The position numbers were made by a program, and so were the translations under genes. Under the pieces are notes generated by a model. The model had not been told where the DNA came from and did no database searches. It saw only the letters and a program-made list of their open reading frames with translations. 64,000 nt of DNA from Kordiimonas pumila (GTDB lineage Bacteria > Pseudomonadota > Alphaproteobacteria > Sphingomonadales > Kordiimonadaceae): the NCBI RefSeq assembly GCF_015240255.1, contig NZ_CP061205.1, forward strand, positions 1,137,501 to 1,201,500, in the 5' to 3' direction. Position 1 is the stretch's first letter; every line of letters starts with the position of its first letter. Of the stretch, positions 18,206 to 55,600 are shown in pieces.

Positions 18206-18309
18206 GTACTTTCCTACAATACGACAGAACAATAAAGGGTTGCGCTAGCAGGAAGCGTCTAACGGCATTTCTCCAGATACCCCAAACTTGGAATTCTAAG
18301 CTTGGCGTT

Positions 18310-20421: not shown

Positions 20422-20423
20422 GA

Positions 20424-21322: not shown

Positions 21323-21339
21323 GTGACAGCAGTTTTTTT
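21309..21339 (+). terminator. Terminator overlapping the DUF697 stop codon
   Basis: CTGCTGCCAC and GTGACAGCAG pair with one mismatch around an ATAA loop that includes the TAA stop, followed by seven T. A good intrinsic terminator that separates this gene from those downstream. Confidence 0.85.
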
Positions 21340-21378
21340 GTCAGAGTTTGTGTTTTATTCCATTAGGAACTTCACAAT

Positions 21379-21546
21379 ATGATATTTTATTTTCTTCTGC
21401 ATATTATTGCATCTGTTTTTGTTGCCTATTGGGGACGGGAAAGCCGCCTTGGCTTTTGGGGACTATTGGTCGCAAGCTTTCTTATTACACCGTTACTCGT
21501 CTTTATCATCCTTGTGTTATTCGGGCGCCGATTTGGTAGTGAATAA
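21379..21546 (+). CDS. Small hydrophobic membrane protein
   Basis: A 55-residue protein with two membrane segments: FYFLLHIIASVFVAYW and LLVASFLITPLLVFIILVLF, joined by a short loop GRESRLGFWG, ending FGRRFGSE. AGGA lies upstream of the ATG at a slightly long spacing. It is followed 41 bases later by the SPFH gene in the same direction, so the two may be co-expressed. No family recognised. The layout resembles small accessory subunits of membrane complexes. Confidence 0.6.
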   Translation: MIFYFLLHIIASVFVAYWGRESRLGFWGLLVASFLITPLLVFIILVLFGRRFGSE

Positions 21547-21587
21547 GAAAACGGCTACTTATTATATAATCAATAGGAAAAGTGATT

Positions 21588-25903: not shown

Positions 25904-26920
25904 ATGAATGCTAATTTAGTAAAAGAAGCTCAGTCTATAGATATTCATTCAGATAATAGCGTATGTTTGCTTTTTTCCGGGCAGGGTTCCCAGTACCGGC
26001 AAATGGGGCGTGAGCTATATGACCATATCCCTTCATTCCAAAATACTATGCAATTGCTCGATAGTGTTTTTCAGGAAGAAGTCGGTATGTCGGCCCTTGC
26101 TGATTTATACGACGACCACCACCTGAAAAGTGATCGGTATGACAAAACACTGCTAACACATCCGGCAATATTCATGGTGCAAGTATCTATTGCCAAAACC
26201 TTGATGGCCAACGGTATCAATGTGACAGCCGTTTTGGGGTCAAGTTTGGGGGAATATATCGGTGCAGTTGTGGCTGGTGCCGTAGAGGCAGAAGACATGA
26301 TGCGTGCTATCGTGCGATCTGCCATGATAATTGAAGAAAATTGTGAAAAAGGTGGGATGCTATCAGTTTTGGGTCCAGCTGGGCTTTATTATGACGATGC
26401 TTTCATTAGAGAGCAGACCACATTTGCTGGCAAATATATGGATGCGTTGATAGTGCTTGCGGGGCAGCCGCAGGCACTCAAGGACGTTCAAGGGTATCTT
26501 GCCAAGAAAGAGGTGATTTCCGTAATGTTGCCCGTGTCACATGCGTTCCATAGTGCAGCACTTGATGTTTGCAGGGAATCTTTGGCACAGGTGTTTTCAG
26601 ATTTTGAGGTTCATCCCCTGAAAATGAAATTTTATTCCTCCCTTAAAGGGGGCGAAGTACACAGCCTGTCTGCTTCACATTTTGGCAAAGTTGGGCGAAA
26701 CCCCATTAACTGTGCTAGTGCTCTCTCAAGTCTTTTATTGGCAAATAATTATGATACGCTTGTTGATGTTGGTCCGTTTGGCTCTTTAGCGGGCATAATT
26801 AAAAAAATGCCTGAGGCTAAAAGTAAGGCATGCCATGTGATTTTGTCTCCCTTTAACAGTTCATTTGAGACGACTAAAGGTGTCCTGACTGCTCTTACCG
26901 GCGCTCAGAAAATCATTTAA
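25904..26920 (+). CDS. Trans-acting acyltransferase-like protein
   Basis: A 338-residue FabD-fold protein. It starts with LLFSGQGSQYRQMG, has the nucleophile motif GSSLGEY (Ser114, instead of the usual GHSLGE), the carboxylate-binding Arg in IVRSAM (Arg138) and the downstream catalytic His in SHAFHS, the malonyl-type AFHS motif. Together with the AT domain at 38242 it gives the cluster two AT-type proteins. In many trans-AT clusters one loads malonyl units and the other is a proofreading acyl hydrolase (PedC type). The altered elbow makes this one the candidate for the second role, or for loading the amidotransferase ACP at 27022. That cannot be decided from sequence. Confidence 0.85.
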   Translation: MNANLVKEAQSIDIHSDNSVCLLFSGQGSQYRQMGRELYDHIPSFQNTMQLLDSVFQEEVGMSALADLYDDHHLKSDRYDKTLLTHPAIFMVQVSIAKTLMANGINVTAVLGSSLGEYIGAVVAGAVEAEDMMRAIVRSAMIIEENCEKGGMLSVLGPAGLYYDDAFIREQTTFAGKYMDALIVLAGQPQALKDVQGYLAKKEVISVMLPVSHAFHSAALDVCRESLAQVFSDFEVHPLKMKFYSSLKGGEVHSLSASHFGKVGRNPINCASALSSLLLANNYDTLVDVGPFGSLAGIIKKMPEAKSKACHVILSPFNSSFETTKGVLTALTGAQKII

Positions 26921-27021
26921 CCCGGCCTATGGGACAGCGGTTGACTTGCAGGGCATAAATAATTGTTATAATTATAAAATTTATTGCATGGATAGCAGGA
27001 AGCATTGGGGTTTTGTTTATT

Positions 27022-27291
27022 ATGGATAATAAAATTCGCACTTTTATGGAAGAACAATTCCTGATTGAGTTTGATGAAACGTTTCCTGAAAACAGTAACC
27101 TGTTTATGGAAGGTGTCCTGGATAGTTTTGGATATGTTGAATTGTGCCATTTTTTAGAGCGTGAATATGACATTAAATTCTCCGAACGCGAAATGACCAG
27201 CAATGTTCTTGTGAGCTTAACCCAAATACAGGAGGCGGTTGCGCTGAAGGTTAAGGAAAAAGATAACGCGTCTGCTGTGGAGGGGCGTTAA
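27022..27291 (+). CDS. Free acyl carrier protein
   Basis: An 89-residue carrier protein with the pantetheine site in GVLDSFGYVEL (Ser35), followed by the helix FLEREYDIKFSEREM. ATG 27022 is chosen; a TTG three codons earlier is open. Its stop overlaps the start of the AsnB-like gene by one base (TAATG), so the two are translated together. In glutarimide pathways a free ACP of this kind carries the malonyl group amidated by the AsnB-like enzyme. Same role proposed here. Confidence 0.88.
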   Translation: MDNKIRTFMEEQFLIEFDETFPENSNLFMEGVLDSFGYVELCHFLEREYDIKFSEREMTSNVLVSLTQIQEAVALKVKEKDNASAVEGR

Positions 27292-29261
27292 TGTGCGGTA
27301 TTGTGGGGCTTGTAAGTGCTGACTTCCCTGCTGGTGAATTGCCGCAAATAATCTCTAATGCCTTATCTGCTATTGGCCATAGGGGGCCTGACGGTTCTGG
27401 TTATGTTGTGGCGGATGATTTTGTTATGGGAACCGTTCGGCTTGCTATTCTGGACCAGAAAGCTGGGATACAGCCCATATCAGATGAAGAGGGCCGGTAC
27501 TGGCTGTGTTATAACGGTGAAGTTTATAATTACCGTGAATTGAAGGCAGAGCTGGAAGAAAAAGGCCACATTTTTAAAACCCAGTGTGATACCGAGGTTG
27601 TACTGCGGGCTTGGATTGAATGGGGAGAAGGCTGTCTGTCTCGTTTTAATGGGGGCTATGCTTTTGCGCTTTATGATCGCCGTACCAAACGAATGGTTTT
27701 GGCGCGGGACAGGTTTGGTAAACGACCGCTATTCTATCACGTTAGGGGGAATGCTCTCTATTTCGCATCCGAAATGAAAGCCTTTTTGGCCATTCCGGGC
27801 TTTGCTTTTGAACAGGATCCGGCACAGCTTGGGTCTATTGTTGCGCAGTGGACGCCCTTGCCAGATCAAACAGGTTTTAAGCATGTTCACAGTTTGCCAA
27901 TGGGTCAGTTTCTATCGTTCCTGAACGGTGAAATAGCATGTCATACATACTATCAGCTTACTTTTGATAGCTCGAGACAAGTTACAAATGAAAAAGACGC
28001 GGTTGAACAAATAAGGGCGGAACTTGATAAGAGTGTTTCCCTGCGCCTTAGAAGTGATGTTGAGGTGGGTGTTTATCTCAGCGGTGGCATCGATTCTGCC
28101 ATTGTTGCGCATTTAGCAAGGCAATATAATAATCATGACCTCTACACGTTTTCTGTAACATTTGAGGACAGTCAGTTTGATGAATCGCTAGAGCAAAACT
28201 TGGTCTCTCAGCACATTGGAACCAAACATCTAGCAAAGCATATCACGTATAAAGATATTGTGGATGCGTTTCCGGATGCTGTTTATCACGCTGAAATTCC
28301 AGCATTCAGAAGTGCCTTTGTGCCCATGTATTTATTGTCTGAATTAACCGCAGAAAATAATATAAAAGTAATTCTAAGCGGTGAGGGGGCAGATGAAGCA
28401 TTTTTAGGATATGACCTGTTTAAAGAAACTATCCTGCGAAGTGAATGGGATGATTTATCCGAGGACTTGCGTAGTGAGCGGCTTAGCAGTTTTTACCCGC
28501 ACCTCGCGCATTACGCAGGCGGCAGTAATGCTGCAGTTGCAGGCCTTTATCAGCAATTTTCCAAAGAAAATATGCCGGGCTTATTTTCACATGAAATTCG
28601 CTTCCAAAATGGCCGCTTTTCTGCACGTCTTATGATGCCAGATGGCGCGCAAGATCCTTTTGCAGACATTATGGGCTTAACACAGTCGAGCGGGGAATTC
28701 GCTTCTATGTCGGCTGTACAAAAAGCGCAGTGGCTTGAATATAAAACATTACTGTCAGGGTATTTGCTATCGACCCAAGGGGAGCGTATGAGCTTATCAC
28801 ACGGCGTTGAAAACCGGTGCCCTTTTCTTGATCTTGCCGTTATTGACGTAGCGGCTGCAACCAACCTGAAGTTTGATAATGGCTTTCGGGAAAAGCGTTT
28901 ACTGAGAGAGGCGTTTCGGGCTGATCTGCCAGCTGAGGTGGTGGATAAAAGGAAGTTTCCTTACCGTGCGCCCGATACCGAGGCCTTTATCGCTGAAAAG
29001 CCAGATTACCTGGACCTTGTTTTGTCAGATTCTGAACTTTCAAAACTACCGTTTATCAACAAGAAGTTCGCAGGCCTTTTGACGAAAAAATTGATAAATA
29101 CTGCGCCGGAAAAAATTTCAACAAAAGAACACCAAACTTTCATGTTCTTGTTGGGTATTGCAATGACAAACCACTTTTTTGTGGAGCGCAGTGGGCGCGG
29201 TGCATCGGGTAAACTTGGTAATCTGCCGCCCTTGCAGAAGGTCGTTGATCTGCGGACTTAG
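27291..29261 (+). CDS. AsnB-like amidotransferase
   Basis: A 656-residue asparagine-synthetase-type protein. The glutaminase domain starts at the nucleophile Cys2 (MCGIVGLV), with HRGPDGSG and CYNGEVYNYREL. The synthetase domain has the PP-loop SGGIDSA near 265 and GEGADEAFLGY. In trans-AT PKS clusters such enzymes convert a carboxylate on an ACP to an amide; in cycloheximide, migrastatin and lactimidomycin-class clusters this makes malonamyl-ACP, the starter of the glutarimide ring. The overlap with the ACP gene and the KS-DH-KR / KS-DH-like modules downstream support that use. It converges with the ECH gene, whose stop overlaps its own. Confidence 0.93.
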   Translation: MCGIVGLVSADFPAGELPQIISNALSAIGHRGPDGSGYVVADDFVMGTVRLAILDQKAGIQPISDEEGRYWLCYNGEVYNYRELKAELEEKGHIFKTQCDTEVVLRAWIEWGEGCLSRFNGGYAFALYDRRTKRMVLARDRFGKRPLFYHVRGNALYFASEMKAFLAIPGFAFEQDPAQLGSIVAQWTPLPDQTGFKHVHSLPMGQFLSFLNGEIACHTYYQLTFDSSRQVTNEKDAVEQIRAELDKSVSLRLRSDVEVGVYLSGGIDSAIVAHLARQYNNHDLYTFSVTFEDSQFDESLEQNLVSQHIGTKHLAKHITYKDIVDAFPDAVYHAEIPAFRSAFVPMYLLSELTAENNIKVILSGEGADEAFLGYDLFKETILRSEWDDLSEDLRSERLSSFYPHLAHYAGGSNAAVAGLYQQFSKENMPGLFSHEIRFQNGRFSARLMMPDGAQDPFADIMGLTQSSGEFASMSAVQKAQWLEYKTLLSGYLLSTQGERMSLSHGVENRCPFLDLAVIDVAAATNLKFDNGFREKRLLREAFRADLPAEVVDKRKFPYRAPDTEAFIAEKPDYLDLVLSDSELSKLPFINKKFAGLLTKKLINTAPEKISTKEHQTFMFLLGIAMTNHFFVERSGRGASGKLGNLPPLQKVVDLRT

Positions 29262-30034
29262 GCTTCCCAAGGGAATTTCAGTTCATCCACATAGCGTTTA
29301 ATATTGGCTTGAATTTTGGCGTCTGAGAACATGCTTTGGTTGGCATCTGTGGCAGGCTTTCTTGTTGCCAGCAAGTCATTGCCGTGAATGCCGTTCATGT
29401 AGCTTTTGTAGGTAGTGATAGCTTGCTTATCCAGCCGTTGAAGTCGGGTAAGGTGTTGGCGAAGCATAAGCGCGGTATTGTCAGATGTTTGATCAACAAG
29501 GTGCCATGAAAGCGCCTCCTGCACATCAATAGTCTTGGTCATTAACGTCATATAATGCGCTTTCTGGCGGCCAACACGGCGTATAAGAAAAGGCAGTACA
29601 CATGCTGGAAAAAGCCCAAACAACATTTCAGAAAGACCAAAGGTTGCCGATGGCCCGGCAAGCACGACATCTGATGCTGCAATAAAGCCAATCCCACCTG
29701 CATTGACCCGGCCTTCAACTAGTGAAATGGAAACAAAAGGGCCAGAAGTCATACGGTGCCATATATCATATAACTGGCCTGCGTCTGGCGCCGCACTACC
29801 GCTGGCCGCGGCATTAAAGTCACCACCTGATGAAAAAGCCTCGCTATTCCCTTCTAGAAGCAGGATAGAAATGCCGTTTTGCGCATCTGCGCAGTAACGG
29901 GTAACGGCATCAAATTCTTCTACAAGCTGCGCATTTATACTGTTTCCGGCCTCTGGCCTGTTGAACTGAATGCTGCAGATTTTTTCATTCACTGTCACAG
30001 CAAGGGTTTCGAAGTTTTGGTGGTCTAACGTCAT
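29258..30034 (-). CDS. Enoyl-CoA hydratase-like ECH1 (beta-branching)
   Basis: A 258-residue crotonase of the PksH type, the dehydratase of HMGS cassettes. Oxyanion-hole segments are AFSSGGDF and NAGGIGFIAASDVVLA. The diagnostic FGLSEMLFGLFPACVLPFLIRR and LVDQTSDNTALMLRQHL match PksH-like ECH1 proteins. It removes water from the HMG-like intermediate formed by HMGS. The last gene of the minus-strand cassette, it has no free ECH2 partner nearby. That role probably falls to the second ECH domain inside PKS module 5. Confidence 0.92.
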   Translation of the reverse strand: MTLDHQNFETLAVTVNEKICSIQFNRPEAGNSINAQLVEEFDAVTRYCADAQNGISILLLEGNSEAFSSGGDFNAAASGSAAPDAGQLYDIWHRMTSGPFVSISLVEGRVNAGGIGFIAASDVVLAGPSATFGLSEMLFGLFPACVLPFLIRRVGRQKAHYMTLMTKTIDVQEALSWHLVDQTSDNTALMLRQHLTRLQRLDKQAITTYKSYMNGIHGNDLLATRKPATDANQSMFSDAKIQANIKRYVDELKFPWEA

Positions 30035-30049
30035 GGGGTGAACCCTTTA

Positions 30050-31279
30050 TTATTGTGCTGCTGTTAAGACGAGTGCTGTATTAATACCGCCGAACCCAAA
30101 GGAAAATTTCAAGGCATTTTTGATAGCATGCTGTTCGGGAACTGTTGAAGTAAACTTTAACCCTGGATCAACGGGTTGATCAAGGTTACGGCACGGGTGA
30201 AGTTTGCCGTACTTCATTTGCAGGAACACGGCTGCGGTCTCTATTGCCCCTGCAGCACTCAAGCTATGACCAATAAGAGATTTAGTCGTATTGATCCACG
30301 CGTGGTCAAGGCCTAATGCCTGATATGTACTCGCTTCGGTTTTATCACCGAGTGGTGTGCCGGTTGCGTGTCCGTTCACATAGTCGATATCTTTATTTGT
30401 CAGGCCCGCTTGCTTTAGGGCAATTTGGGCGGCCTTTTGTTGGCCCATGCTATCAGGCTCCGGCCCGCGGCTGCCATCAGGGACGGCAGCGCCGCCAGCG
30501 ATAAACCCGTAAGGGCTATGAGTGCCATTGCACCGTTCTATAACAAGTGCCGCGCAAGATTCGCCGTATATAAAACCATCACTGTTCTGAGACATTGGAC
30601 GACAAGCCTTTTCGGGGCAGTCTGTATTACTTGCGCCTCCCATCGCCCCCATTGAACGCATTGTATAAAGGTTCATGAGGGAAATATCTTGCAGTGCCCC
30701 AACCGCAATACACACATCAACACGGTCCTCTTGTATGGCCCGCATGGCTTGCAAGATAGCAGCGGCCCCACTTGCTGAGGCAGCGTTGGTGGTTTCACAA
30801 ACACCGCGAATAGGGAAGGTTGATGCCAAAACTGCCGCAATTTCGGTGTCGAGGAATATATGCCCCATTCGAGGGGGGATAAAGGAAGTACGGTCTTGAT
30901 AGGCAGCTATTGCAAGTTCCTGCTCGCGCGCCATTAGGGCCGTGCCGCCAACAACAACACCTATTCTCTCAGGGTCATATTTATCAAGCCCGGCTTCAAG
31001 CCATGCTTCCTGTACAACAGACACGGCAACACGGGCAGATAGGGATAATGTGCGCTCAAGCCTAGCCGGTAAATGAGTTTTTTGTATCTCTGGTATTTCA
31101 ACGCCGATGAAAGGGCTGTGGCCTTCTTGTGTCTCTCTGCCTTCGCGGGATAGATATGAAAAAAGATTGGGAGCTGTATAGAGGGCATCACTAAACGCTT
31201 CTTTGCCAAAGCCTGCACCACAAGCAACACCAATACCGATTACTGCCAGCGGGCTTTTATCCTTCGGATTTTTTAGCAT
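30050..31279 (-). CDS. Decarboxylating ketosynthase of HMGS cassette (Ser-type)
   Basis: A 409-residue FabF-like ketosynthase from ATG 31279, overlapping the ACP gene. The nucleophile Cys is replaced by Ser168 in TNAASASGAA, while both His residues are kept (NGHATGTPLGD, IGHSLSAAG). This change turns a KS into a malonyl-ACP decarboxylase. In beta-branching cassettes it makes acetyl-ACP for HMGS to use. The gene order ACP-KS-ECH after HMGS matches other trans-AT clusters. Confidence 0.93.
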   Translation of the reverse strand: MLKNPKDKSPLAVIGIGVACGAGFGKEAFSDALYTAPNLFSYLSREGRETQEGHSPFIGVEIPEIQKTHLPARLERTLSLSARVAVSVVQEAWLEAGLDKYDPERIGVVVGGTALMAREQELAIAAYQDRTSFIPPRMGHIFLDTEIAAVLASTFPIRGVCETTNAASASGAAAILQAMRAIQEDRVDVCIAVGALQDISLMNLYTMRSMGAMGGASNTDCPEKACRPMSQNSDGFIYGESCAALVIERCNGTHSPYGFIAGGAAVPDGSRGPEPDSMGQQKAAQIALKQAGLTNKDIDYVNGHATGTPLGDKTEASTYQALGLDHAWINTTKSLIGHSLSAAGAIETAAVFLQMKYGKLHPCRNLDQPVDPGLKFTSTVPEQHAIKNALKFSFGFGGINTALVLTAAQ

Positions 31280-31505
31280 GCAATAACTCGGAAAGCTCAC
31301 CAAGGTTTTTAGGCCCGTGAAGGGATGTCATGGGAACAGTAAGGTCCATAGCCTCCAGCGTTGCTATAAGTATCTCTGCTCGCTCCATTGAGTTGATTCC
31401 AATCTCGGTCATGGATGTCTCTGCCGTGATTGGCTGGTCAATCAGTTCTGGAACACATTCATGAATTTCAGAGATTAGAATATTTAAAATGTCTGTTGTG
31501 CTCAC
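31257..31505 (-). CDS. Donor acyl carrier protein of HMGS cassette
   Basis: An 82-residue ACP with the pantetheine Ser39 in EIGINSMERAEIL, a form typical of the donor ACP that carries malonyl then acetyl for HMGS. It sits between HMGS and the decarboxylating KS, overlapping the KS start by 23 bases. It differs from the PKS-bound ACPs, which have G-(L/M/F)-D-S motifs. Confidence 0.92.
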   Translation of the reverse strand: MSTTDILNILISEIHECVPELIDQPITAETSMTEIGINSMERAEILIATLEAMDLTVPMTSLHGPKNLGELSELLHAKKSEG

Positions 31506-31543
31506 TGATTTTCCTTTTGGGTGATGTGGTAGATGACGGGCCG

Positions 31544-32800
31544 TTATACCCAGCGATATTCGCGATGATAGTCTGACACGCCCTCTAATACGAGCCAGTT
31601 TTTACCTGTGCCGTTTGATGATACCCCCGGAATGTTATCAAGACTAATATTGGCGTCTTTGGTGCCAAACCGTAAAGTCTGTTCACCACTAAGCAACCAT
31701 TCATATTCGTCCATGGACAATAGATGACGCTTTTTTAATGCCTGATCAATGTTCATTTTAGCTAAGACTTTTTGGCCATCTGGCGTTACCGTGCCGCTAA
31801 AGAACTCTGAGCAACACCCTGAGCCGTATGAAAAAATCCCGATCCTGAGGGGGGCACTGATAGGCGCGTTATCAATAACACCTGTTAAAGCAACAAAAAT
31901 ACCGCCCCCTGCCGTATTGCCAACTCTGCGACCATACGCGAGGCTGGGCATTAGCCGCTCATTAAAATCGCTTTCAATTTCAGGAGAGGGTGTTTTGTAT
32001 AGTTTGCGCATCAAATGGCGGTGCGCCCCTTTTACCATGCCACCAAAGGGTGTGTGGAAACAGAGGTATTGGAAACTTTTCTTAAAGTCGGCTCCTTCAA
32101 CACGGCGCGCGTAATCAGTATAGGCACCGTTGCAGCAGTCAAGATAGGCCATCAGTGACAAGTCTGCATCTCCGGCTTCTGTGTCTGGGCCGGGTCTGCA
32201 TGTGTCCATAACTTCAAAGGCATGATTACCGTATGCCCCGGGGTCAATCCGGAATATATCGGGCTTGTCAGAAACCAGCATGGCAACAGCCCCCGCGCCA
32301 GATGTCGGCTCTGAATACGCCCATTCTTGCACTGCATTTTTATCGTCTAGGGCAAATCTTGAAATATCAGTGGTAATAACAAGTGCTTTGGCACCCGGCG
32401 ATGTTCCCGACAAAAGAAAATTAAGGGCCATTTGCAGGCCAGCAGCCCCTGAGTAACAAGCTTGCTTGATTTCAAACAACCGGCAATTGGATGGCAGATT
32501 TAAGAGGTTGTGGATATAAGTGCTGATAGACTTGCCAAAATCGATCCCTGATTCAGTACAGGTGACAACCATTTCTATGCGGCTTTTTTCCTCTTCACTT
32601 AAGGCATCAATGATCGGTTTAGCGGCATTAACCGCGAAGCTCACAGGGTCTTCACAGGGAAGGGCAACGGTTTTTTCGTCAATCAACAGATTTTCAAATC
32701 TATTGATTTCAAGGTTTCTGTATTCAGCTAACTTATGAACATCCAGCGAAGCACGCCCGCCGTACAGGTTCATGGCTTCAATGCCAACATTTTGGTGCAT
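31544..32800 (-). CDS. HMG-CoA synthase-like enzyme (HMGS)
   Basis: A 418-residue HMGS from ATG 32800, whose start overlaps the P450 stop (TAATG). The nucleophile is Cys115 in IKQACYSGAAGL. Further signatures are YCNGAY-like CCNGAYTDY, FHTPFGGMVKGAHR and GNTAGGGIF. It adds an acetyl unit from the donor ACP to the beta-keto group of a PKS-bound chain, the first step of beta-branching. The acceptor ACPs should be those with the Trp flag in modules 4 and 5. Confidence 0.95.
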   Translation of the reverse strand: MHQNVGIEAMNLYGGRASLDVHKLAEYRNLEINRFENLLIDEKTVALPCEDPVSFAVNAAKPIIDALSEEEKSRIEMVVTCTESGIDFGKSISTYIHNLLNLPSNCRLFEIKQACYSGAAGLQMALNFLLSGTSPGAKALVITTDISRFALDDKNAVQEWAYSEPTSGAGAVAMLVSDKPDIFRIDPGAYGNHAFEVMDTCRPGPDTEAGDADLSLMAYLDCCNGAYTDYARRVEGADFKKSFQYLCFHTPFGGMVKGAHRHLMRKLYKTPSPEIESDFNERLMPSLAYGRRVGNTAGGGIFVALTGVIDNAPISAPLRIGIFSYGSGCCSEFFSGTVTPDGQKVLAKMNIDQALKKRHLLSMDEYEWLLSGEQTLRFGTKDANISLDNIPGVSSNGTGKNWLVLEGVSDYHREYRWV

Positions 32801-34065
32801 TAGTTCGCCTCTACTTGAATAGGCAGCGAGGCAAGGCCCCGCGCGTTTAATCTGTCCAGCCGCCATTCTGGTTTACCTGCGAACTCAATTTTTGAAAACT
32901 TGTCGAGAATAGAAGAAAAAACGATAGAGGCCTCAAGTCGTGAAAGCGGCGCACCAATACATACATGGGGGCCGCCGCCAAAGGTCTGATGCGGGTTTGG
33001 TGTACGGGTAATATCAAAAACAAAGGGATTTTCATAGCGCCGTGGGTCATAATTTGTGGCGCTAATCATCCCCATGACCATAGCTCCTTCAGGGATTTTT
33101 GTGCCGCCTATCTCACACTCTTTTGCGGCAATACGCAGGATCATGGTGCCGCTTGGTTCAACCCTTAGCATTTCTTCTATCGCTTTATGCATCAGGCTAC
33201 GATCAGCATGTAGTTTTTGCCTTTGATCAGGGTTTTTAAGCAGTAGATACATACCACTCCCAAGGAGGGATACGGTGGTTTCATGGCCTGCAAGCACCAT
33301 TGACATAAGGTTTATCAGCGTTTCTTCTTCTGTCATTGTGCCATTATCTAGTGCTTTAATGGCCATATCCATCAGGCTGTTGCCGTCTTTGTGGCGGCGG
33401 ATAGCTATTTCTTCTTTTAAATATGCTTTGAAATTATTCTGTGCGTCCAGTGCCTCTTCTTTTTGGGCGTCTGTTAGCAGTATGTCGGCTAACCGGATAA
33501 TAGCGGCACTCCAGCGGCCAATTTCCTCGTCAAGAGTGGATGGGATATCAAAGAGGTTACACATAACCCGTAAGGGCAGTGGCCCCGCCACCGCTTTGAC
33601 AAAATCCACAGGTTCACTGACAGGTAGTTGGTTGAGCAACTGGCCACATTCGGCCTCTATCATCGGTGACAGGTTTTTCATCATTTGGGCACGAAAAGCG
33701 GGGGTGTAAACATCGCGCATTCTTTTATGATCAGCGCCGTCATTATTGATTATTTGGGGCTGGTTTCCACTTAGAAGCTCAAAGCCCACAGGGTCTTTTG
33801 CCCGGTACTCTTCTGTGTTCCAGCCGTCTTTCCATAGCCTTGTATCGCGCCGCATATCAGGAGATTTCATGATCTGCTGAAATTCAGCGTGGCCTAGTAT
33901 GAAATATATATCCGAATAGGTGTCATGATGTATGGGCCCCTCTTTCAGTAATTCATGTAATGTTGGAAAAGGGGTTGTAATAAAGGCATGATCAGTGATG
34001 GTGCCCCACCAATCAGTTGTACTGTTCGTGGGGCTATTGCTTGTTTTAATATTTGAAACACTCAT
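32800..34065 (-). CDS. Cytochrome P450
   Basis: A 421-residue bacterial P450. The I-helix is LAGHETTVSLL, the ExxR pair is EEMLRVEP, and the haem loop is FGGGPHVCIGAPL. It resembles P450s that oxidise polyketide or terpenoid products. In this operon it probably tailors the product, for example by hydroxylation; the site is unknown. Electrons could come from the ferredoxin at 11405 or an unlinked partner. It is 14 bases after the TauD-like gene and overlaps HMGS. Confidence 0.95.
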   Translation of the reverse strand: MSVSNIKTSNSPTNSTTDWWGTITDHAFITTPFPTLHELLKEGPIHHDTYSDIYFILGHAEFQQIMKSPDMRRDTRLWKDGWNTEEYRAKDPVGFELLSGNQPQIINNDGADHKRMRDVYTPAFRAQMMKNLSPMIEAECGQLLNQLPVSEPVDFVKAVAGPLPLRVMCNLFDIPSTLDEEIGRWSAAIIRLADILLTDAQKEEALDAQNNFKAYLKEEIAIRRHKDGNSLMDMAIKALDNGTMTEEETLINLMSMVLAGHETTVSLLGSGMYLLLKNPDQRQKLHADRSLMHKAIEEMLRVEPSGTMILRIAAKECEIGGTKIPEGAMVMGMISATNYDPRRYENPFVFDITRTPNPHQTFGGGPHVCIGAPLSRLEASIVFSSILDKFSKIEFAGKPEWRLDRLNARGLASLPIQVEAN

Positions 34066-34079
34066 TGCTCTTTTGTCGC

Positions 34080-35126
34080 CTATTCATCGTCTTTCAAAGG
34101 AAATGGGTGCCAATATTCGCCGTTATGTTCCCCCGGTGCGGCTTCGCGTGTTTTATCCCACTCGCGTGTACTTTGAAGGATAGATATTTCCACTTGTGTA
34201 CGGCGCAAGGCACGCTTGGTTGTTGGGTCAACTAGGCCTCTGCGGTGCATGGTGCCATTGCAGTTCCATATAACCAAATCGCCTTCTTTCCACTCGTGTG
34301 AATAAAGGAAAGGTTCGCGGATGGTTTTGCTGAAAACATCTTTAATGAGGGCATCACTTTTAGCACGCTCGTATCCCACTACGCGGTCCATATCATGGAA
34401 ATTCAGGTACAGGAATTTTTCACCCGTATGAGAGTTTTGTTTCACCAAAGGCTGGCTAACAGGGGCTGTGTTTTCTGGCATGTCGACAAAATCAATTTCA
34501 GGAAAAACCATACAGTGCAGCACCCGCAGGCTTTCATATTTTTCCTGTGCCGCTTTATCAAGTGCAGCAAAGGCCGCTGTTGTATTGGCAAACTGTGTGT
34601 GGCCTTCACGTTCTGGTACAATGACAGGGCTTAGAATGTTGATAACCTCTACATTCATTTTCTCTGTGTCGCCCGTGTGCCAGCAGGATGTGCCGTGCAT
34701 TTTATACTGATCTTTCATGTCCAGTATTACGTTTGGATCATGGTCTGTGTCGCACAGTTCTGGCCCATTTATGAAAAACAGTTGGTTGCCCTTATTCAGA
34801 ATTGGCAATTGGCCAAGCTTGCCCACTCTGCCCACTTGCGCATCTGCTTCTGCGGGCGGTGCCCACGTGTGCAGAGTTTGGTCGCGCTGTTTGCCCAGTG
34901 CTGCTGTAATGGCATCCTGCTGTTCGCCGTCGATATGTTGGTCGCGGATTACAAGTACCAAGTGATGGGCGAGCAGTTCTTGCAAGGTATCAATAACAGC
35001 GTCACTGATAGTACCTGTGAGGTCCAGCCCCCGAATTTCTAGTACAAATGTTTCACTTAATTTCGCGAGTGTTACATTGGCAAACTCGGCGGGCATTCCC
35101 ATTGTACTTGTTTCAGTTTGCAACAT
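34080..35126 (-). CDS. TauD-family Fe(II)/2-oxoglutarate enzyme, H-x-G type
   Basis: A 348-residue TauD/TfdA-like protein from ATG 35126 (a GTG three codons earlier is open); it has GGGG eight bases upstream. The metal motif, usually WHTDxT, reads WHTGDT here: His150 then Gly152 (codon at 34671-34673) in the place of the Asp ligand. The distal His (GTMHRRG) and the 2-oxoglutarate Arg (RALRRTQV) are kept. In SyrB2, WelO5 and BesD the Asp is replaced by Ala or Gly so that chloride can bind, so a halogenase is a real option. A register shift using Asp153, or an unusual hydroxylase, must be excluded. It lies in the tailoring operon beside the P450. Confidence 0.85.
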   Translation of the reverse strand: MLQTETSTMGMPAEFANVTLAKLSETFVLEIRGLDLTGTISDAVIDTLQELLAHHLVLVIRDQHIDGEQQDAITAALGKQRDQTLHTWAPPAEADAQVGRVGKLGQLPILNKGNQLFFINGPELCDTDHDPNVILDMKDQYKMHGTSCWHTGDTEKMNVEVINILSPVIVPEREGHTQFANTTAAFAALDKAAQEKYESLRVLHCMVFPEIDFVDMPENTAPVSQPLVKQNSHTGEKFLYLNFHDMDRVVGYERAKSDALIKDVFSKTIREPFLYSHEWKEGDLVIWNCNGTMHRRGLVDPTTKRALRRTQVEISILQSTREWDKTREAAPGEHNGEYWHPFPLKDDE

Positions 35127-36216: not shown

Positions 36217-36329
36217 AACAAACCTGAGCGTGATAATGGATCGACAATGTTGGGTGGAGAAAGTTCCTTATTCCTTTCCGGCAGTGGAGCATAAAGCCAA
36301 AATGACTTCAATATTTAGTTGTAGTTTTG

Positions 36330-36360
36330 TTTACAGCGAAAGGGATATGTGGATTATAAT
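36330..36360 (+). promoter_or_regulatory. Possible promoter of the metallophosphoesterase gene
   Basis: TTTACA at 36330-36335 and TATAAT at 36355-36360 are separated by 19 bases, longer than ideal. The pair lies 30 bases before the GTG start at 36390 in the divergent interval shared with the Ntn-hydrolase gene. Confidence 0.35.
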
Positions 36361-36389
36361 AACTGTCTTTTTAGTATAAGGCTTGTTTT

Positions 36390-37229: not shown

Positions 37230-37241
37230 TTTGGTGAAGCG

Positions 37242-38006: not shown

Positions 38007-38241
38007 GTATTTCAGTGCCTTACGGGAAAACTGCTTGCATTGTAATATTGTTTTACCAATAATCCTTTTATAAGCTACAGATATTTAATTAATAATTGGG
38101 GCTAACTGGAATAATGCCAACTGAATCGTTCTAAGAACGCTGATGATAAAAAATACCTGAATTATTATACTCAAAATTAAATGCCCCTGAAAACAGGGCT
38201 AGGGACGGGTGGTCACTCCAGACTACCCATTGGAGGACTAG

Positions 38242-46600: not shown

Positions 46601-49600
46601 GAGCGTGCTGTAGCCGGCAGGCAGCTTGAAACTGTCGCTGATATATGGACTAAAGGTGTCCCCGTTAATTGGCGGCACTATAATGAAGGCCACAGTCTGC
46701 GCCGGGTGTCGCTACCCAATTATCCGTTTGAGCGTGTTCACTGTTGGTATCAGGATTATCCTGATGCGCCTTCTGTTATCAATCCGTTGGGGTCAAAATC
46801 GAAGCTTCATCCATTTGTTGGCCAGAATGTGTCTGACCTTTCGGGGCTAGCATACGAAACGGCTCTCTATCTTGAAGAGATGCAGGATTATGTGTGCCGC
46901 GCGGGCAGGGATATGTATATTAACCCTGTTGTTGCAGCAGACGTGGCGGCAGCACTGGGGCGTGTGGCTGGCCTATCTGGGGATATCGCCCTTGAAGCTT
47001 TAAATGTACATAACCCGGCTGATTGGCAGAGTGTTACGGCGCTTAAATATAACCTAGAAACAGATGGGGCTGGTCGTCTGCATATTTCGGCGCTTGTTGT
47101 TGCGGGCGATAAGGAAGCAGTCTGGTTTGAAGCGGAAATTAAAGGGCAGGCGGTGCCTTTGCACCAGCCACTTGACCTTAAATCGCTCATTGCTTCTTCT
47201 TTTGAAAAAATAGAACATGCTTCCCTTTATTCTGAGTTCTCAAAACGACGGCTTGGGTATGGTCCGTACCTTGAAACGATTGAGAGCGTGTATAAGTTAC
47301 AGGATGGGCGCTATTTGGCGCAGATTCGCAATAACCCGCCCCAGCAAGATAGCTTTAAAAAGAACATGCAACTGGATGCGGTGGCTTTGGCGGCTGCAAA
47401 CCAGCTTTTTGAGTATGTATCACCGGGTTGGGGTGCAGGGTTGCAGTGGTCATTAAGCCGTGCGTATGTTGCCGCAAATGATATTACTTATGTGCTTCTC
47501 AGCCCGAACGTGCAGTCGAGCTATGATGTTGCCTTCCTGACCGAGACTGGTTTGATTTGCGCCTCCTTTGAAGGTGTGTGCGAGGGGCAGAATATTTTGA
47601 GGACGGCGAGCGGCGTAGAGCACAGCCTTTCAACAGAAACCACAACGGAACTGGTGGCCCAAAGCCTGAAGGAAATTGCAGGGGGTATTCTTAAGTTTCC
47701 AACCGCTGATATCCCTGACAGAGAGCGTTTCCATGACTTAGGGTTCGATTCCATTACCCTAACCCAATACGCAGAAGAAATTAACAAGGCGCTTGCGGTT
47801 GATATTTCACCCGCTATTTTTTTTGACTGTGCTGACATTAAGGCCTTGAGCCAGCATTTAGTGACCCGCTTTAACCCTGTTGTTGGTGAAACCGTTAAGC
47901 ATCAGCCTGCCCCAGCCCCAAAGGTAGTGCAGGAGAAAACTCAACCTTTAGCCAACAAGGTGCACACTGTTGCAGAAAAGCGGAGAGCTGATGATAGCGG
48001 TGATGATGAGATCGCTATTATTGGTATGGCAGGGCGTTTCCCTGGCGCTGATACAGTGGATGCGCTGTTTGCTAGGCTTGTCGCTGGGGAAGATTTAATA
48101 AGTGACCTGCCGCTGGAGCGTTACGAGGGGCAGTTACTGAGCCACATAACAGAAGCTGATTTTGTCAAGCGTGGCGGGTTTATTGGCGGTGTTGACTTGT
48201 TTGACGCCAGCTACTTTAAGATTTCGCCGTTTGAAGCACAGCGACTTGACCCGCAGCAACGCTTGATGCTGGAAACTGTTATTCATAGCCTTGATGATGC
48301 TGGCTATGACAAAACTGAATTGCCGAAAGACACCGGTGTTTTTATCGGCGTAAGCGCCCTAGATTATGAGGCCTTGTTAAAGGCTTCTGGTAACAAAGCT
48401 GATGGTTATAGTGCCACTGGTAATTCCCTTGCGATGGTCGCGAACCGGGTGTCGCACTTTCTTGATATTTACGGCCCGAGCATGTCTATCGATACGGCGT
48501 GTTCCAGTTCCCTTGTGGCTTTGCATCAGGCAGCAAGCGCCATCAAGCAGGGTTCCTGCCCAGTGGCGATTGTTGGCGGCGTTAACCTTTGCTTGTCCAA
48601 AGACGGTTTTGAAGGCCCGCTAGACGCTGGCATGCTCAGCCCCACAGGCTATTGTCACAGTTTCGGCGACAGTGCTGACGGCTATGTGCGCGGCGAAGGT
48701 GTGGCAGCGGTTATTTTGAAGAAATACTCTGAAGCCGTGCGTGACGGCGATAATATTTACGGTAAAATCATCGGGACAGCCCAAAACCACGGCGGGCATG
48801 CGGGGTCATTAACGGCCCCCAATGTGCAGGCCCAGTCGCAGCTTGTGCAAACGGCTATGCAAGGCATAGACCCTGCGACTATTTCCTATATTGAAGCGCA
48901 CGGGACGGGCACACAGCTTGGGGACGCTGTTGAGGTTAGTGCCTTGAAACAGGCCTTTGAAACGCAGCTCGGTTCGCAGAAATATGACGCGCCTTTTGTT
49001 CACTTGGGTTCGATTAAATCAAATATCGGGCACCTAGAGGCAGCGGCAGGCTTGGCTGGCGTTGTTAAAGTTCTTTTGGCAATGCAGCATAAGACACTGC
49101 CGAAAAGTCTGCACTGTGAAACGGTGAACCCGCATTTAGGCTTAGGGGGCTCACCTTTCAAACTTGTGACTGAAACCCGCGCATGGGAGAGCAGTGCTGA
49201 TGCACCGCGCAGGGCTGGGGTTAGCAGTTTTGGTTTTGGTGGTGGTAACGCTCATGTTGTGCTTGAGCAGGCACCTGACAGCTATGTCGCAACGCGAGCA
49301 AAACGCCAAGCCACCGTCTTCAATCGGAAAAGCTACTGGTTACCTGATGCTGATGGCGTTACTCAAAGGCCAACCATTTTAACACCAGAGTGGGTAGAAA
49401 AGCCCCTCAGTATTGGCGCTCTGCCACAAGACATGCGGCGAGTTGTGCTGCCGGTTAATATGGAAGTGGCTTTTACCCAAAATGCAGTGCAGCACCCATT
49501 CCAGAGCCACAATTCGGATGTGGCGGAAAAATATGCTGGGGCCGTGAAGCATGTGTGGCGGCACTTGAAGGCCCTGATTGAGGACCAATCAGAGACGCAG

Positions 49601-52600
49601 ACACTTGTGCAGCTTTTGGTGCCGGATATGTCGGAGGCTGATGGGTATTTGGCGGGGCTGTCAGCGATGCTTGAAACTGCGGCAATTGAGGCCCCGAAAC
49701 TTCAAGTACAATATATCCAGTCTGACCGGCGGTATGCACCGCAGGCTTTGGCAGACCTTTTAGAAAACGAGTTTGCCTCAAGCGATAAATCCATCAGGTA
49801 CCATGCTGGCAGGCGGTATGCGCAAGCGTGGACACAAACAAGCCTTAACGTTAGCCATAGCCAAACCTTATCGGGTGTAACGCTTATTACTGGCGGACTG
49901 GGCGGTGTTGGACAAGGTGTTGCGGCGCATATTGCTGAGCAAACTTCAGCTTCAGCCCTTATTTTGACAGGTCGCTCAGAGCTCACCCATGATGATGAGG
50001 CTTTTCTCGCGGCATTGCAGGCTCAGGGTGTGCAGGTTGACTATGTCAGAACTGATATTGCGGATGAACATGCCGTTCAGGAATTGGTAACACATATTAT
50101 CCGTAAATATGGTCAATTAAACCATATAATGCACTGCGCTGGTGTGCTGAGGGATGGTTATATTATCCAAAAACCTGAAACTGACCTTGATATTACCCTA
50201 AGTGCAAAAGTTGTGGGAACGGTTGCTCTTGCTAATGCAACGAAAGCCATGAATTTGGATAGTTTTGTGCTGTTCTCGTCGCTTGCTGGTATCACTGGGA
50301 ACGAGGGCCAGATCGATTATGCCGCAGCGAACGGGTTTATGGACGCTTTTGCCGCCAGTAGTGACGGGCGCATCCTCTCTGTAAACTGGCCGTATTGGCT
50401 AAGCGGCGGCATGGTTATGGATCAGCTTTCGCAAGACAGGCTGTATGAGCAAATGGGGCAACGCCCCATGTCCACCAAGCAAGGGTTGGATGCGTTAAAA
50501 GTGCTGGCATGCTTTGGGCAGTCACGCGCCGCTGTAATCGCAGGTGAGCCGGATAAGATTAAGCATTATTTCGCGGGTCTTATGCAGCGTAATAAGGTCG
50601 CTCTATCCAGTGATGTGAAAGTAACGGCGCACAGTAATGCCCACCAGAAAACAGCATTAATCCCTGCTGTTCGCAAGCATTTGACCAGTTTGTTCGCTAA
50701 AGTGAGCGGTGTGGATGCTTATGATATCGACGGTGATGTTCTACTTGAAGAATACGGTATTGATTCCCTGATGATCACCCGGTTAAACCGTGAGCTAGCT
50801 GACATCTTCGGGGCGTTATCTAAAACACTGTTTTTCCAGTATAAAACCTTAAATGCGGTTGCTGATTATTTGGTGCAGGGTAAAGCCAGTGAATGTGAAA
50901 AATGGGTTGGTTATGTGCTAGATTCTGCCAGTGCCATACCTCAGGCAGATATGGCGCCCCAAACCGCACAAAACCCAAGCCGTTTTGCGCCCAAGGACGC
51001 TGACGCCGGTGATGCCGTGGCAATTATCGGGATTTCAGGGCAGTACGCGGGCGGGGACGGTCTGAAAGGTTTTTGGGAAACGTTGGTCAGTGACAGGAAT
51101 GTCATCAGCGAAATTCCAGAAGACCGCTGGCCGCTTGCAGGCTTCTTTGAAAGTGATCCAGACAAAGCGATTGAGGCAGGGAAAAGCTATGCTAAATGGG
51201 GGTCTTTCCTCACTGGTTTTGCTGACTTTGACCCGCTTTTCTTTAAAATTTCACCGCGTGATGCCGCCGCGATGGACCCGCAGGAAAGGCTGTTCTTGGC
51301 GTCCAGCTGGCATGCGATGGAAAACGCGGGTTACAGCCCAGAGAGGCTAAAAGACCAGACACAAGGTCAAGTGGGTGTGTTCGCGGGTGTTTGCAAAACC
51401 GGCTATGCCCTGCACGGTCCTTATGAAAGTGAAGACGGCGCTATTGTGCGCCCTGCGACATCCTTTGCTAGTGTCGCAAACCGTGTGTCTCATGTGCTGG
51501 ATCTCTCCGGCCCTAGCATGCCGGTTGATACAATGTGTTCATCTTCCCTAACAGCTATCCATGAGGCTTGTGCTTACTTGCAGAAAAACCCACATGCTAT
51601 GGCGTTTGCTGGCGGCGTTAATCTTTACCTGCACCCTTCGAATTATACGGAACTGTGTGCGGCGGGTATGCTGTCGCCAGACGGCCTCTGTAAAAGTTTC
51701 GGCGCGGGGGCCAATGGGTTTGTGCCGGGTGAGGGTGTTGGGTGCATTTTACTGAAGCCACTTTCAAAAGCCCTTGCGGACGGGGATTATATCCATGCGG
51801 TCATTCGCGGTAGTGCAGTGAACCACGGTGGGCACACAAACGGATATACGGTGCCAAACCCGCAGGCACAGCGCGATGTTGTGCGTATGGCCTTGGATGC
51901 AGCAGGGGTTAGGGCCGAGCAGCTCAGTTATATTGAAGCACACGGAACTGGCACCTCGCTTGGTGATCCGATTGAAGTGGAGGGTCTAACGCAAGCTTTT
52001 GACCGGGATACGGATAGCAAAGGTTTCTGCGCGCTTGGCTCTGTTAAATCTGTGTTTGGTCATTTGGAGGCTGCGGCGGGCATCGCGGGGCTTACGAAAG
52101 TTGTGTTGCAGATGCAGCAGGGCCAGTTAGTGCCCACGCGCCATGTTGACAAGGTTAACCCCAATATTGAATTTGATATGACGCCCTTCAAATTGCAGCG
52201 CACGCTGGAACCTTGGGGGAATGATACGCCGAAGATTGCGGGTATATCTTCCTTTGGTGCCGGGGGCGCAAACGCCCATATTATTATCGAGGAGGCCCCG
52301 AAAAGTGCCTTTACACGGCCTTCCCATAAGACTGACTTTGAAGAAGTTATTATCCTGTCTGCTAAAAGCCGAACCGGCCTTGCAGCGCAAGCAAAACAGC
52401 TTTTAGACTTTCTGGGCGACCAGAGTACAGGCAGCGCAGCGGTTGATAAAGTAGCTATTATCGAGGCACTACTCAGTGAGCTTTCTAATATTTTGAAAGT
52501 CGATAAAAGCGACCTTCAGGTTGATGATCCGCTTGATACACTGGGCATGGAACCGCATCACTGGATTATGCTGGAGCGGTGGTTAAATCATACCTATGAC

Positions 52601-55600
52601 CACAGCATTCAGGAAACCAGCCTTTCTGCTCAGTCAAGCTTATTGGATATTGCGGCATCTATGGGCGCAAGCGATATACCGGCGGATAAGCGCACTAATG
52701 CTTCGCTTGCAGACATAGCTTACACCTTGCAGGTGGGGCGGCAGGATATGGAGTGTCGTTTAGCTTTCACTGCCAGAACGATTGGCGAATTGACAGACAA
52801 GTTAGGGCGCTGGCTGAGCGGGGACCGCACAGACAGTCAGATATTCGAATCAGAAGATAAGCCTGTTGCGGCCGCAATGAAAAAGCTACTGGGCGGTGAC
52901 GCGCTGGATTCCATTGTGTCAGGTTACTGGCAGCAAAAGGATTATGATAAGCTATTACCAATATGGGTTGCGGGCATTTCTGTAGACTGGTTGGCTTTGC
53001 CAAGGGCCTGCAAGGCGAAAACAGTGCCGTTGCCGACATATCCCTTTGATCTGCAGAAATACTGGTTGCCAAGATTAGCAGGTTCAAGTGCATACAAAGG
53101 GCTGGTAACTGAAATTGCGGCAGCTTCGGGGGACACGGTCCTGCAAGACGCAGATGACAGGCTGGAAGCCCGTATTGCTGTGCTTCTCAAGGCTATTTTG
53201 GCAGATATACGCCCCGATGCCATCACGGATGGTTATAAAGCTTGGTATAAGGCGGCCCTTCAGCTAGTTGCAGATGATAGCGATACAAAGCCGTTTGAAA
53301 AGGCATGGAATGACTGGAACACTTACATGCCTGTAAGTGCTGTAAACCTGTCTCGCATAGAACTTGCTGAAATTGCCTTTAGGCATTTGCCTGCGGTCTT
53401 AACAGGACAGAAAAAAGCAACCGATGTGTTGTTCCCGGATGGGTCATTGAAAGCAGTTGAAGCGGTCTATAAGGAAAACCCGATTGCAGCCCGGTTTAGC
53501 AAACATACTGCAAATGGGGTGGCGGCCTTTGTGCGGGATAGGGTAAAAACTGCACCTCAGCAAAAAATCAAAATACTGGAAATTGGTGCAGGAACGGGTG
53601 GCACCAGCAAGCTCATTTTTGAAGAATTAATGCCTTACGCGGATCATATCGATAGCTATTGCTACACAGACGTATCTCGCGCTTTTTTAATTCATGCGGA
53701 ACAGCAGTATTTAAGCGATGTGTCCTATTTAAAAACGGCTATCCTTGATATTGAGAAGCCTACCATCAGTGATGAAGTTGGTGCTGCTGACTATGATCTG
53801 GTTGTGGCGGCGAATGTACTGCATGCGACAGCTGATATTGTCAGCACGCTGAAAAACGTTAGGAAGATGCTAAAGCCGGATGGTGTTTTGCTTTTGAATG
53901 AAACCAGTAAGGCCACTCTCTTTACGCATCTTACCTTCGGGCTTTTGGATGGGTGGTGGCGCTTCACGGACGCTGAAAGGCGTATTGCTGGCACGCCGTC
54001 CCTTACATCTGCGAGCTGGGATGCGGCGCTGCAAGAGGCAGGCTTCGAGGGTATTTCATATTCGGGCACCAAAGAACAGGCGTTAGGCCAGCAAATTATT
54101 GCGGCCCGTGCGGTGGGTGAGGTCGTGAACCTGCCTATAAGTACTGCTGTTCAAACGGTGGAAAAGCCTGCACCCAAGCCAGAGGCGCCATCTTATGGCA
54201 GCTCGGTTGAAAGTGTTTTGAAGGTGAGCTTAGCGCGCACCTTAAATATGCCTGTGGCGAAAATTACGGCGGGGCAGGCATTTGCGGACTTAGGCCTTGA
54301 TTCAATTCTGGGTGCTGAATGGGTGCGGCGTATCCGCAGTGATTTGGGCATAAAGCTTGATCAGACTGCCTTATATGACTTTACGAACCTCAAAGAACTG
54401 ACAATCTTTGTTGAAGAAACTTGGCCCGAAGCATGCCAGAAAACGGACGTTCAACAACCTTCCCAGTCTATTGCAGAGGCAACAGAAACGGGGCCTAAGA
54501 AAACTGAGCGAGTAGAAAAGGAAGCTTTTTCCACAATTGGTATGCCCTCAAAAGCACAGCAACAAAGAGAGCCAATTGCCATTGTTGGGATGAGCGGGCG
54601 GTTTGCCGGGTCTGAGACAATTGCGGAGCTTTGGGACCACCTGTTTGCAGGGGATGACCTTGTTCAGCCAGTGTCACGTTTTGACCTCAGCGCATATTAT
54701 AAGGATGCGCCAAAGGGCACTTACGGTGACAAAGGCAGTTTCCTAAGTCGGATTGATACGTTTGATTCTGTCTTTTTTGGGATTTCGGGTGTTGAAGCCA
54801 CCTATATGGACCCGCAGCAACGGCTGTTCCTTGAAGAAGCGTGGAAAACCCTTGAGCATGCAGGGCACGCCGGCGGTGATATTATCGGCAGCGAGTGCGG
54901 TGTGTTTGTTGGGTGCAGCCACGGCGATTATCATGAACTTTTCGGGGGGGATGCACCGGGGCAGGCATTTTGGGGAAACACCAGTTCCTTAATACCAGCA
55001 CGCATTTCATACTGGCTTGACCTCAAGGGGCCAGCCGTTGCCATTGATACAGCTTGCTCTAGCTCCCTTGTTGCAGTGCACACAGCCTGCCGCAGCATAT
55101 GGGACGGCGAGTGTAATATGGCCTTGGCAGGCGGTGTTTTTGTCCAGAGCGGACCGCGTTTCTACCGGTCAGCCAATCAGGCGCAGATGCTGTCCCCTAG
55201 CGGTAATTGTGCGGCATTCGGTGAGATGGCAGACGGCATTGTACCCGGCGAAGCGGTTGCCTCTGTACTATTGAGGCCGCTATCAGAAGCCCTAGCTGAC
55301 GGTGACACAGTTTACGGCGTGATTATTGGTTCTGGCACCAATCAGGACGGTGCCACCAACGGCATTACTGCGCCAAGTGCTAAATCGCAAGAAAAGCTGA
55401 TCCGCAAGGTGCAGACGGAGTATAACATTGATCCTGCCTCTATTGGTATGGTTGAAGCACATGGTACGGGAACGCCGCTTGGTGACCCGATTGAATTTAA
55501 CGCGTTAAACCGTGTATTTGGTCATAGAGCATCAAATGGTAAATCAATATACCTTGGATCGGTTAAATCAAACATAGGCCATGCAACAACAGCCGCGGGG

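Follow-up and report, generated by a model that had tools for sequence, protein, structure and literature searches.

A putative sesbanimide-type trans-AT PKS/NRPS gene cluster in Kordiimonas pumila with a TauD-family dioxygenase and a choloylglycine-hydrolase-family enzyme among its tailoring genes

The window analysed here is a stretch of 64,000 nucleotides of the Kordiimonas pumila genome (contig NZ_CP061205.1, positions 1,137,501 to 1,201,500 of the forward strand), and all coordinates are given in window numbering. It carries a trans-acyltransferase (trans-AT) polyketide synthase (PKS) cluster that is read as spanning about 20774 to 80377, 16 kb past the window end; 33.5 kb of DNA to the right of the window was also read, giving 97.5 kb searched in total. 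The host genome is a single 4.04 Mb contig. From its sequence, the cluster is very probably a sesbanimide-type trans-AT PKS/non-ribosomal peptide synthetase (NRPS) gene cluster. A preliminary description of the same DNA had proposed a glutarimide-type assembly line at 25904–54430, which ends near the end of module 4, and did not mention the row of minus-strand genes at 29258–36216.

The first megasynthase is an SbnO-type PKS of 6886 residues (40613–61273, plus strand; assigned from Pfam domains and ketosynthase motifs). Its order is KS-DH-KR-ACP / KS-B-ACP / KS-KR-ACP / KS-cMT-ACP / KS-ECH-ECH-ACP-ACP / KS plus a weak DH-like remnant (KS, ketosynthase; DH, dehydratase; KR, ketoreductase; ACP, acyl carrier protein; B, branching; cMT, C-methyltransferase; ECH, enoyl-CoA hydratase). 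The first four modules, which lie within 40613–54571, are as they had been described, and the seven-domain glutarimide start KS-DH-KR-ACP-KS-B-ACP is present. The gene is followed by one for an SbnP-type flavin monooxygenase (FMO; 61285–62589, plus strand; PF00743, 178.3 bits; 65–79% identity across seven related clusters), for which a Baeyer–Villiger oxygen insertion is predicted, and by one for an SbnQ-type PKS–NRPS of 5939 residues (62558–80377, plus strand, of which the window holds 62558–64000; Pfam domains) with the order ACP-KS-DH-KR-ACP-KS-ACP-KS-DH-ACP-KS-KR-ACP-C-A-PCP-TE. The Cys-His-His motifs are kept in all ten modular KS of the cluster, and module 6 is split between SbnO and SbnQ around SbnP, as in sbn clusters.

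The sbnO–sbnP–sbnQ plan set out in the account of the sesbanimide R cluster (PMC8262917) consists of an ECH-ECH module, a split module, an FMO gene and, as the second megasynthase, a protein that closes with C-A-PCP-TE. The match to this plan identifies a sesbanimide-type cluster and not an unidentified continuation. Both the order of the SbnO modules and the FMO gene are in line with that account (PMC8262917) and with seven other clusters that were fetched. The ECH-ECH and split FMO modules, which had been taken as pointers to a new congener, recur in relatives and are part of a published plan (PMC8262917), and are therefore not by themselves signs of one. A new congener is plausible for other reasons, namely the TauD-family enzyme and the hydrolase described below, the lack of an FkbM gene and a missing KS-ACP.

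The starter genes stand to the left of SbnO on the plus strand: a divergent, free, SbnA-like acyltransferase (AT)/acyl hydrolase (25904–26920; Acyl_transf_1, 121.7 bits), a free ACP assigned to the malonamyl starter (27013–27291; a weak PP-binding match of 17.4 bits, cut-off 20.8) and an AsnB-like amidotransferase corresponding to SbnJ (27291–29261; Asn_synthase and GATase_7 Pfam matches). The glutarimide-type starter set of AT, free ACP and asparagine-synthetase homologue is thus complete, with a weak match for the ACP. The preliminary description had placed these genes in one overlapping run; open frames and Pfam matches bear out their presence, and the ACP and AsnB genes do share one base, but the AT and ACP genes are 92 bases apart.

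If the assembly line follows the published sesbanimide pathway, on which the chemistry given here is modelled, the AT, ACP and AsnB would provide malonamyl-ACP, modules 1 and 2 would extend this starter, and a Michael addition at the B domain would close the glutarimide ring. Module 3 would then yield an alcohol and module 4 an α-methyl ketone, module 5 with the HMG-synthase cassette would introduce an exomethylene group, the split module 6 with SbnP would insert an ester oxygen, and SbnQ would build the second chain. The amino acid added by the NRPS module would be a basic one, arginine most likely, and the thioesterase would then release the product.

The glutarimide assignment depends on the nature of the DH-like domain in module 2 (46781–47611, plus strand; residues 2057–2333 of SbnO), which is identified from its RhiE matches as a branching (B) domain of the RhiE type. 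As had been noted, it is without the HxxxGxxxxP motif that is present in the first DH of the same protein (DH1). On its own, it matched two distinct sequences in the PDB (phmmer, E ≤ 0.01), both of them RhiE. A profile built from ten B-domain sequences found RhiE at 2.6e-21 and, as the next chain, 5hqw at 1.1e-8, which is also matched by DH1. Chance matching is not an issue with such scores. That the domain is instead an ordinary inactive DH, with no glutarimide formed, is extremely unlikely: there is a weak Pfam PS-DH match (20.6 bits, under the cut-off of 23.7) and the profile also reaches DH chains, but it ranks RhiE 12 orders of magnitude over the best other chain, DH1 shows the opposite pattern (30 distinct PDB sequences at E ≤ 0.001, RhiE not among them) and the AsnB starter genes are present. 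The inactive-DH reading was rejected on the PDB matches, the profile ranking and the DH1 control, and the domain groups with RhiE and not with ordinary DHs.

The B domain is divergent, with 25–40% identity to nine others. Within the order it was found in three genomes of the same genus among 396 searched, and one further match was borderline (2.6e-4, in a frame of 464 residues). When the KS-B-ACP module was compared with a plasmid collection, four of 1214 matching records covered at least 80% of it, three of which are from Streptomyces (44–47% identity).

Relatives were collected by scanning a collection of species genomes for AsnB with six short peptide patterns. This matched 247 stretches; a relative is encoded in 244 of them, and 80 were retained. 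The scan misses clusters, the locus of Magnetospirillum gryphiswaldense MSR-1 being one that was not returned. Synteny was mapped for 30 of the 80 loci (L003–L030, L039 and L056), and 19 of these (L003–L020 and L056) are sbn-type by gene content. A Phaeospirillum metagenome-assembled genome (MAG; L039), whose match lies at a contig end and is 66% over 213 residues, was left out of the sbn-type set. The DNA available differs from locus to locus, and absence below means absence from the DNA searched. AsnB identity is 71–72% to two Kordiimonadales MAGs (L003 and L004), 57–65% to the other 17 sbn-type loci, which include Stappia, Roseibium, Aurantimonas, Rhodobium and Burkholderia among others, and 50–51% to six actinomycete loci. 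The free AT is 48–51% identical to those of the two Kordiimonadales loci and 25–30% to those of other loci where it was found. The SbnO module order is the same in the seven other clusters where this protein is whole, some weak domain calls apart; an eighth SbnO (L003) breaks off in module 4, where its contig ends.

A tree of 134 KS sequences (one method, FastTree, with SH-like support) places all ten KS in the clade of their own position from other sbn-type lines, with support of 0.93–1.00. KS1–KS3 join the KS1–KS3 of actinomycete loci with support of 1.00, these reference loci being glutarimide-type by architecture and not named producers, while KS from thiomarinol, Agrobacterium vitis and Methylosinus fall outside the joint clades. 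KS2 and KS3, the two positions whose placement had been proposed as a check, group with KS2 and KS3 of other lines of glutarimide architecture (support of 1.00 each). Their placement and the RhiE-like domain together support the original claim of a glutarimide-type trans-AT PKS. The idea of a later pathway of unfamiliar type was rejected on the domain comparison with relatives and on the KS tree. The stronger form of the new-congener proposal, in which the glutarimide line would make a new and unrelated backbone, is very unlikely. The divergent B domain and the lost KS-ACP would fit it, but every one of the ten KS has its positional orthologue in sesbanimide-type lines and the lost KS is without its catalytic His in the four relatives where it could be read, so that no extension would be lost.

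Some points weigh against the sesbanimide-type assignment. The Pfam RhiE_B match on the B domain reaches 21.4 bits, under the cut-off of 27; a search of 12 genomes from which related loci come found the B domain in ten, L011 and L018 giving none; and SbnQ is not uniform among clusters, as Stappia and Roseibium have one more DH and only the present cluster is without the last KS-ACP.

This last KS-ACP, which precedes the C domain, is present in all seven other SbnQ examined. Aligned with the SbnQ of L004, the present protein is shorter by a net total of about 680 residues, and the remaining ACP is closest to ACP10 of the relatives. The KS motif of the lost pair (KS11) could be read in four of the seven (L004, Stappia, Nitricoxidireducens and CTSoil_122), and the catalytic His is missing in all four; no motif was returned for Azorhizobium, Breoghania and Roseibium. 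The lost KS should therefore be non-elongating, with no extension lost. A published caution holds that differences of this sort from one PKS assembly line to another may be artefacts of misassembly (PMC7930024), but an assembly error in place of a real deletion is unlikely here, given that the genome is one 4.04 Mb contig and that no stop interrupts the reading frame at the junction, which has a linker and an ACP, the latter most similar to ACP10 of the relatives. The terminal NRPS module with its thioesterase is of the arginine type found in sbn clusters, the specificity being predicted from sequence. Its A-domain code reads DTEDLGAIT, one change (Leu for Ile) from the DTEDIGAIT seen in three of the six relatives compared; those of the remaining three (DAEDIGAIT, DTEDIGAVT and DAEDIGAVT) differ at one or two more positions. 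The code positions used are those that we take to be the standard ones, and the tenth was assumed to be Lys and not read.

The minus-strand row at 29258–36216 has the order hydrolase, TauD, P450, HMG synthase, ACP, decarboxylating KS and ECH. The last four form a β-branching cassette (HMG synthase, 31544–32866; ACP, 31257–31505; decarboxylating KS, 30050–31303; ECH, 29258–30034), which, with the ECH and tandem ACPs of module 5, is a trait of sbn clusters. The cytochrome P450 (32800–34065; PF00067, 121.1 bits) is SbnE-like and 47–65% identical to those of related clusters. Beside it lies a TauD-family Fe(II)/2-oxoglutarate dioxygenase (34080–35135; PF02668, 120.8 bits) with 71% identity to its counterparts in L003 and L004. 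A close form was found in three of 19 genomes of the genus, and a search of the plasmid collection gave distant relatives only (best 29% among the matches listed). TauD and the hydrolase occupy the same place in this cluster, L003 and L004, and are absent from the 17 remaining sbn-type loci.

In MSR-1 the C6 methoxy group is assigned to a P450 and an FkbM methyltransferase; of this sbn trait, only the P450 was found here. No FkbM gene lies in the 97.5 kb around the cluster; the three FkbM-family genes of the genome are all far away, and a copy elsewhere near the cluster was rejected. Nor was one found in the three Kordiimonadales clusters or in nine others, while, counting the present cluster with the 19 loci, eight out of 20 sbn-type clusters have it (L005, L006, L009, L013, L017, L018, L019 and L020). 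The C6 oxygen that the P450 would set should therefore stay unmethylated in the Kordiimonadales branch, being left free or altered by TauD. Five further loci (L008, L010, L015, L016 and L056, from Aurantimonas, Breoghania and Roseibium/Labrenzia) carry two extra P450 genes (at 19500–21945 in locus numbering), some of them cut by the locus end, and FkbM was not found in these either; tailoring therefore differs considerably across branches.

The first gene of the row encodes a choloylglycine-hydrolase-family (linear amide C–N hydrolase) enzyme (35113–36216; PF02275, 155.5 bits), the nearest solved relative of which is PDB 3hbc (E 4.7e-55). Cys26, Arg42, Asp45 and Asn207, which we take to be the catalytic residues, are invariant across the three Kordiimonadales clusters (53–61% identity to L003 and L004). 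In the two sequences that include the N-terminus (that of K. pumila and that of L003) it looks, by eye, like a signal peptide that ends before Cys26. The gene adjoins that of TauD and stands in a row with TauD and P450 in all three clusters. The family was found in three of 19 genomes of the genus (completeness is 90% or more for 15 of them), exactly the three that have the cluster, the B domain and the close TauD. The plasmid collection gave distant relatives only (best 39% among the matches listed), and a search of the open-licence literature for choloylglycine hydrolases or penicillin V acylases tied to PKS tailoring gave nothing relevant by title.

Two ABC exporters are encoded upstream of the starter genes (frames 22577–24238 and 24141–25880, plus strand). 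They belong to the cyclic-peptide export family TIGR01194 (309.5 and 314.6 bits, cut-off 286.2), are presumably of the PvdE/SyrD type, and at least one of the two was found in 16 of the 19 sbn-type loci. Enzymes of the choloylglycine-hydrolase family cleave the amide bond of conjugated bile acids. The reading that we favour, tentatively and by analogy, is that the ABC pair would export the product and that the hydrolase, in the periplasm, would then cut the terminal acyl-arginine amide. More tentatively still, it may be a dedicated exported maturation hydrolase that removes the arginine added by the NRPS, with arginine serving as a temporary tag for export or handling, in the way that ferribactin carries its acyl chain in pyoverdine synthesis, and TauD taking the tailoring position of FkbM. 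Why other clusters that encode an arginine module give products without arginine is left open in the sesbanimide R paper (PMC8262917). A comparable division of labour is described for pyoverdine (PMC6206403): acylated ferribactin is exported by an ABC transporter, which is most likely PvdE, and is trimmed in the periplasm by PvdQ, an Ntn hydrolase. Genes for TIGR01194 exporters and for a hydrolase with a signal-peptide-like start are present here, and any likeness of the two to PvdE and PvdQ would be one of function only. The hydrolase presumably belongs to a different Ntn family from PvdQ.

It is a substantial possibility that the two enzymes leave the arginine amide alone, TauD adding a second hydroxyl to the chain and the hydrolase cutting either an internal ester, which would give short alcohols like sesbanimides A and C, or an unrelated amide, for example that of a quorum signal. 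TauD-type enzymes are mostly hydroxylases, the choloylglycine-hydrolase family is broad, and a Stappia is reported to give features that fit sesbanimides A and C, the short forms (PMC12997852). Against this, the closest relatives of solved structure carry the name choloylglycine hydrolase, that of an amide-cutting enzyme, and in all three clusters the gene lies in the tailoring row beside TauD and P450.

Several observations also count against arginine removal by the hydrolase. The family has other substrates, acyl-homoserine lactones among them. Arginine was without effect on cytotoxicity when sesbanimides R and F were compared, sesbanimide R being active at 20–39 nM on the four cell lines tested (PMC8262917); with the two about equally cytotoxic, an activation step that removes arginine is not clearly called for. 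A self-protecting prodrug role for arginine was rejected on this near-equal cytotoxicity (PMC8262917) and because the glutarimide class acts on eukaryotic translation. Roseibium aggregatum PHM038 (L014) is listed among the clusters whose products lack arginine (PMC8262917), and no such hydrolase gene was found in the DNA of its cluster that was searched, so that trimming would explain at most the Kordiimonadales branch. Finally, the three genomes that share these genes are related to one another, and the pattern may stem from a single inherited block and not from three independent events.

Between the minus-strand row and SbnO lie a metallophosphoesterase gene (36390–37229, plus strand; Pfam), a 4'-phosphopantetheinyl transferase gene (37242–38006, minus strand; Pfam) and a gene for a trans-AT fused to a PfaD-type enoyl reductase, which is SbnN-like (38242–40620, plus strand; fabD 296.5 and pfaD_fam 561 bits, both above cut-off). 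In MSR-1 enoyl reduction is assigned to a separate acyl-CoA dehydrogenase, SbnX (PMC8262917); the PfaD-type part of the fused protein could be its source here. A promoter scan of 36000–36600 gave a result at chance level. In an A. vitis plasmid trans-AT PKS cluster (L122, 35520–41935) phosphopantetheinyl transferase, metallophosphoesterase and fabD genes are adjacent, as they are here from 36390, and this set may be common to alphaproteobacterial trans-AT clusters. At the left edge of the cluster are plus-strand genes for a DUF697 protein (20774–21322; Pfam) and an SPFH/Band_7 protein (21582–22499; Pfam). The pair also stands beside the sbn-type loci L003, L011, L019 and L020 and, at 31–34% identity, near those of Stappia (L005) and Breoghania (L010); L018 has DUF697 only. 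Neither protein is named in the sections of the sesbanimide R paper on the cluster and its biosynthesis (PMC8262917), and the two may act in export or in membrane handling.

Just left of the cluster, 12472–19569 holds transposase/integrase genes (DDE_3, 12472–13122; rve, 16656–17513 and 17580–18164) together with genes for a Toprim/DUF3987 and a HipA-like protein. The window itself starts with the end of a 23S rRNA gene, a 5S rRNA gene and a tRNA-Met gene (1–2137). The mobile genes on the left flank and the presence of the cluster in three of 19 members of the genus suggest that it was gained horizontally.

Among known systems, the cluster resembles the sesbanimide R sbn cluster of MSR-1 (PMC8262917) in SbnO–SbnP–SbnQ, the AsnB and ACP starter, the β-branching cassette, the P450, the split Baeyer–Villiger monooxygenase module and the terminal arginine-type NRPS module. 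It differs in that FkbM was not found, TauD and the hydrolase are present, and there is no counterpart of the nonelongating KS5 reported in the MSR-1 SbnQ (PMC8262917); this comparison was made against the published text and not the MSR-1 DNA. Core genes and SbnO module order are shared with Stappia indica SBBC 49 (L005) and PHM038 (AsnB 65 and 63% identical, respectively; KS 62–78% to Stappia), whereas in these two the AT is placed elsewhere (25–28% alike), SbnQ has the extra DH and the last KS-ACP, TauD and the hydrolase were not found, and FkbM is present in L005 (one of the three Stappia loci, out of four, that have it). The Kordiimonadales MAGs L003 (WFTS01000017.1) and L004 (JAESQS010000163.1; contig end in the SbnQ C domain) have the same gene order, including TauD and the hydrolase, but L004 keeps the KS-ACP. 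Streptomyces glutarimide lines and gladiostatin/gladiofungin share the AT/ACP/AsnB starter, the seven-domain start and, in their numbering, modules 2–4 of one architecture, and differ in the later modules and in chain release (PMC7756379; PMC10574677).

The class and the scaffold are already known, and glutarimide PKSs outside Streptomyces, including in Magnetospirillum, are already predicted in print (PMC7930024). What is new is the Kordiimonadales variant, with TauD and the hydrolase and without FkbM, and the loss of the KS-ACP; in the open-licence literature, judged mainly by title, no publication was found on a Kordiimonadales sesbanimide cluster or on a choloylglycine-hydrolase-family enzyme in a sesbanimide-type cluster. 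The KS-ACP, lost here and kept in L004, the nearest relative sequenced across that region, provides a clean comparison pair that bears on whether a non-elongating KS is needed before the NRPS module. Arginine trimming, if true, would give the question of the missing arginine a candidate enzyme, for this branch only, and the presence of a candidate amide hydrolase inside the cluster makes that question directly testable.

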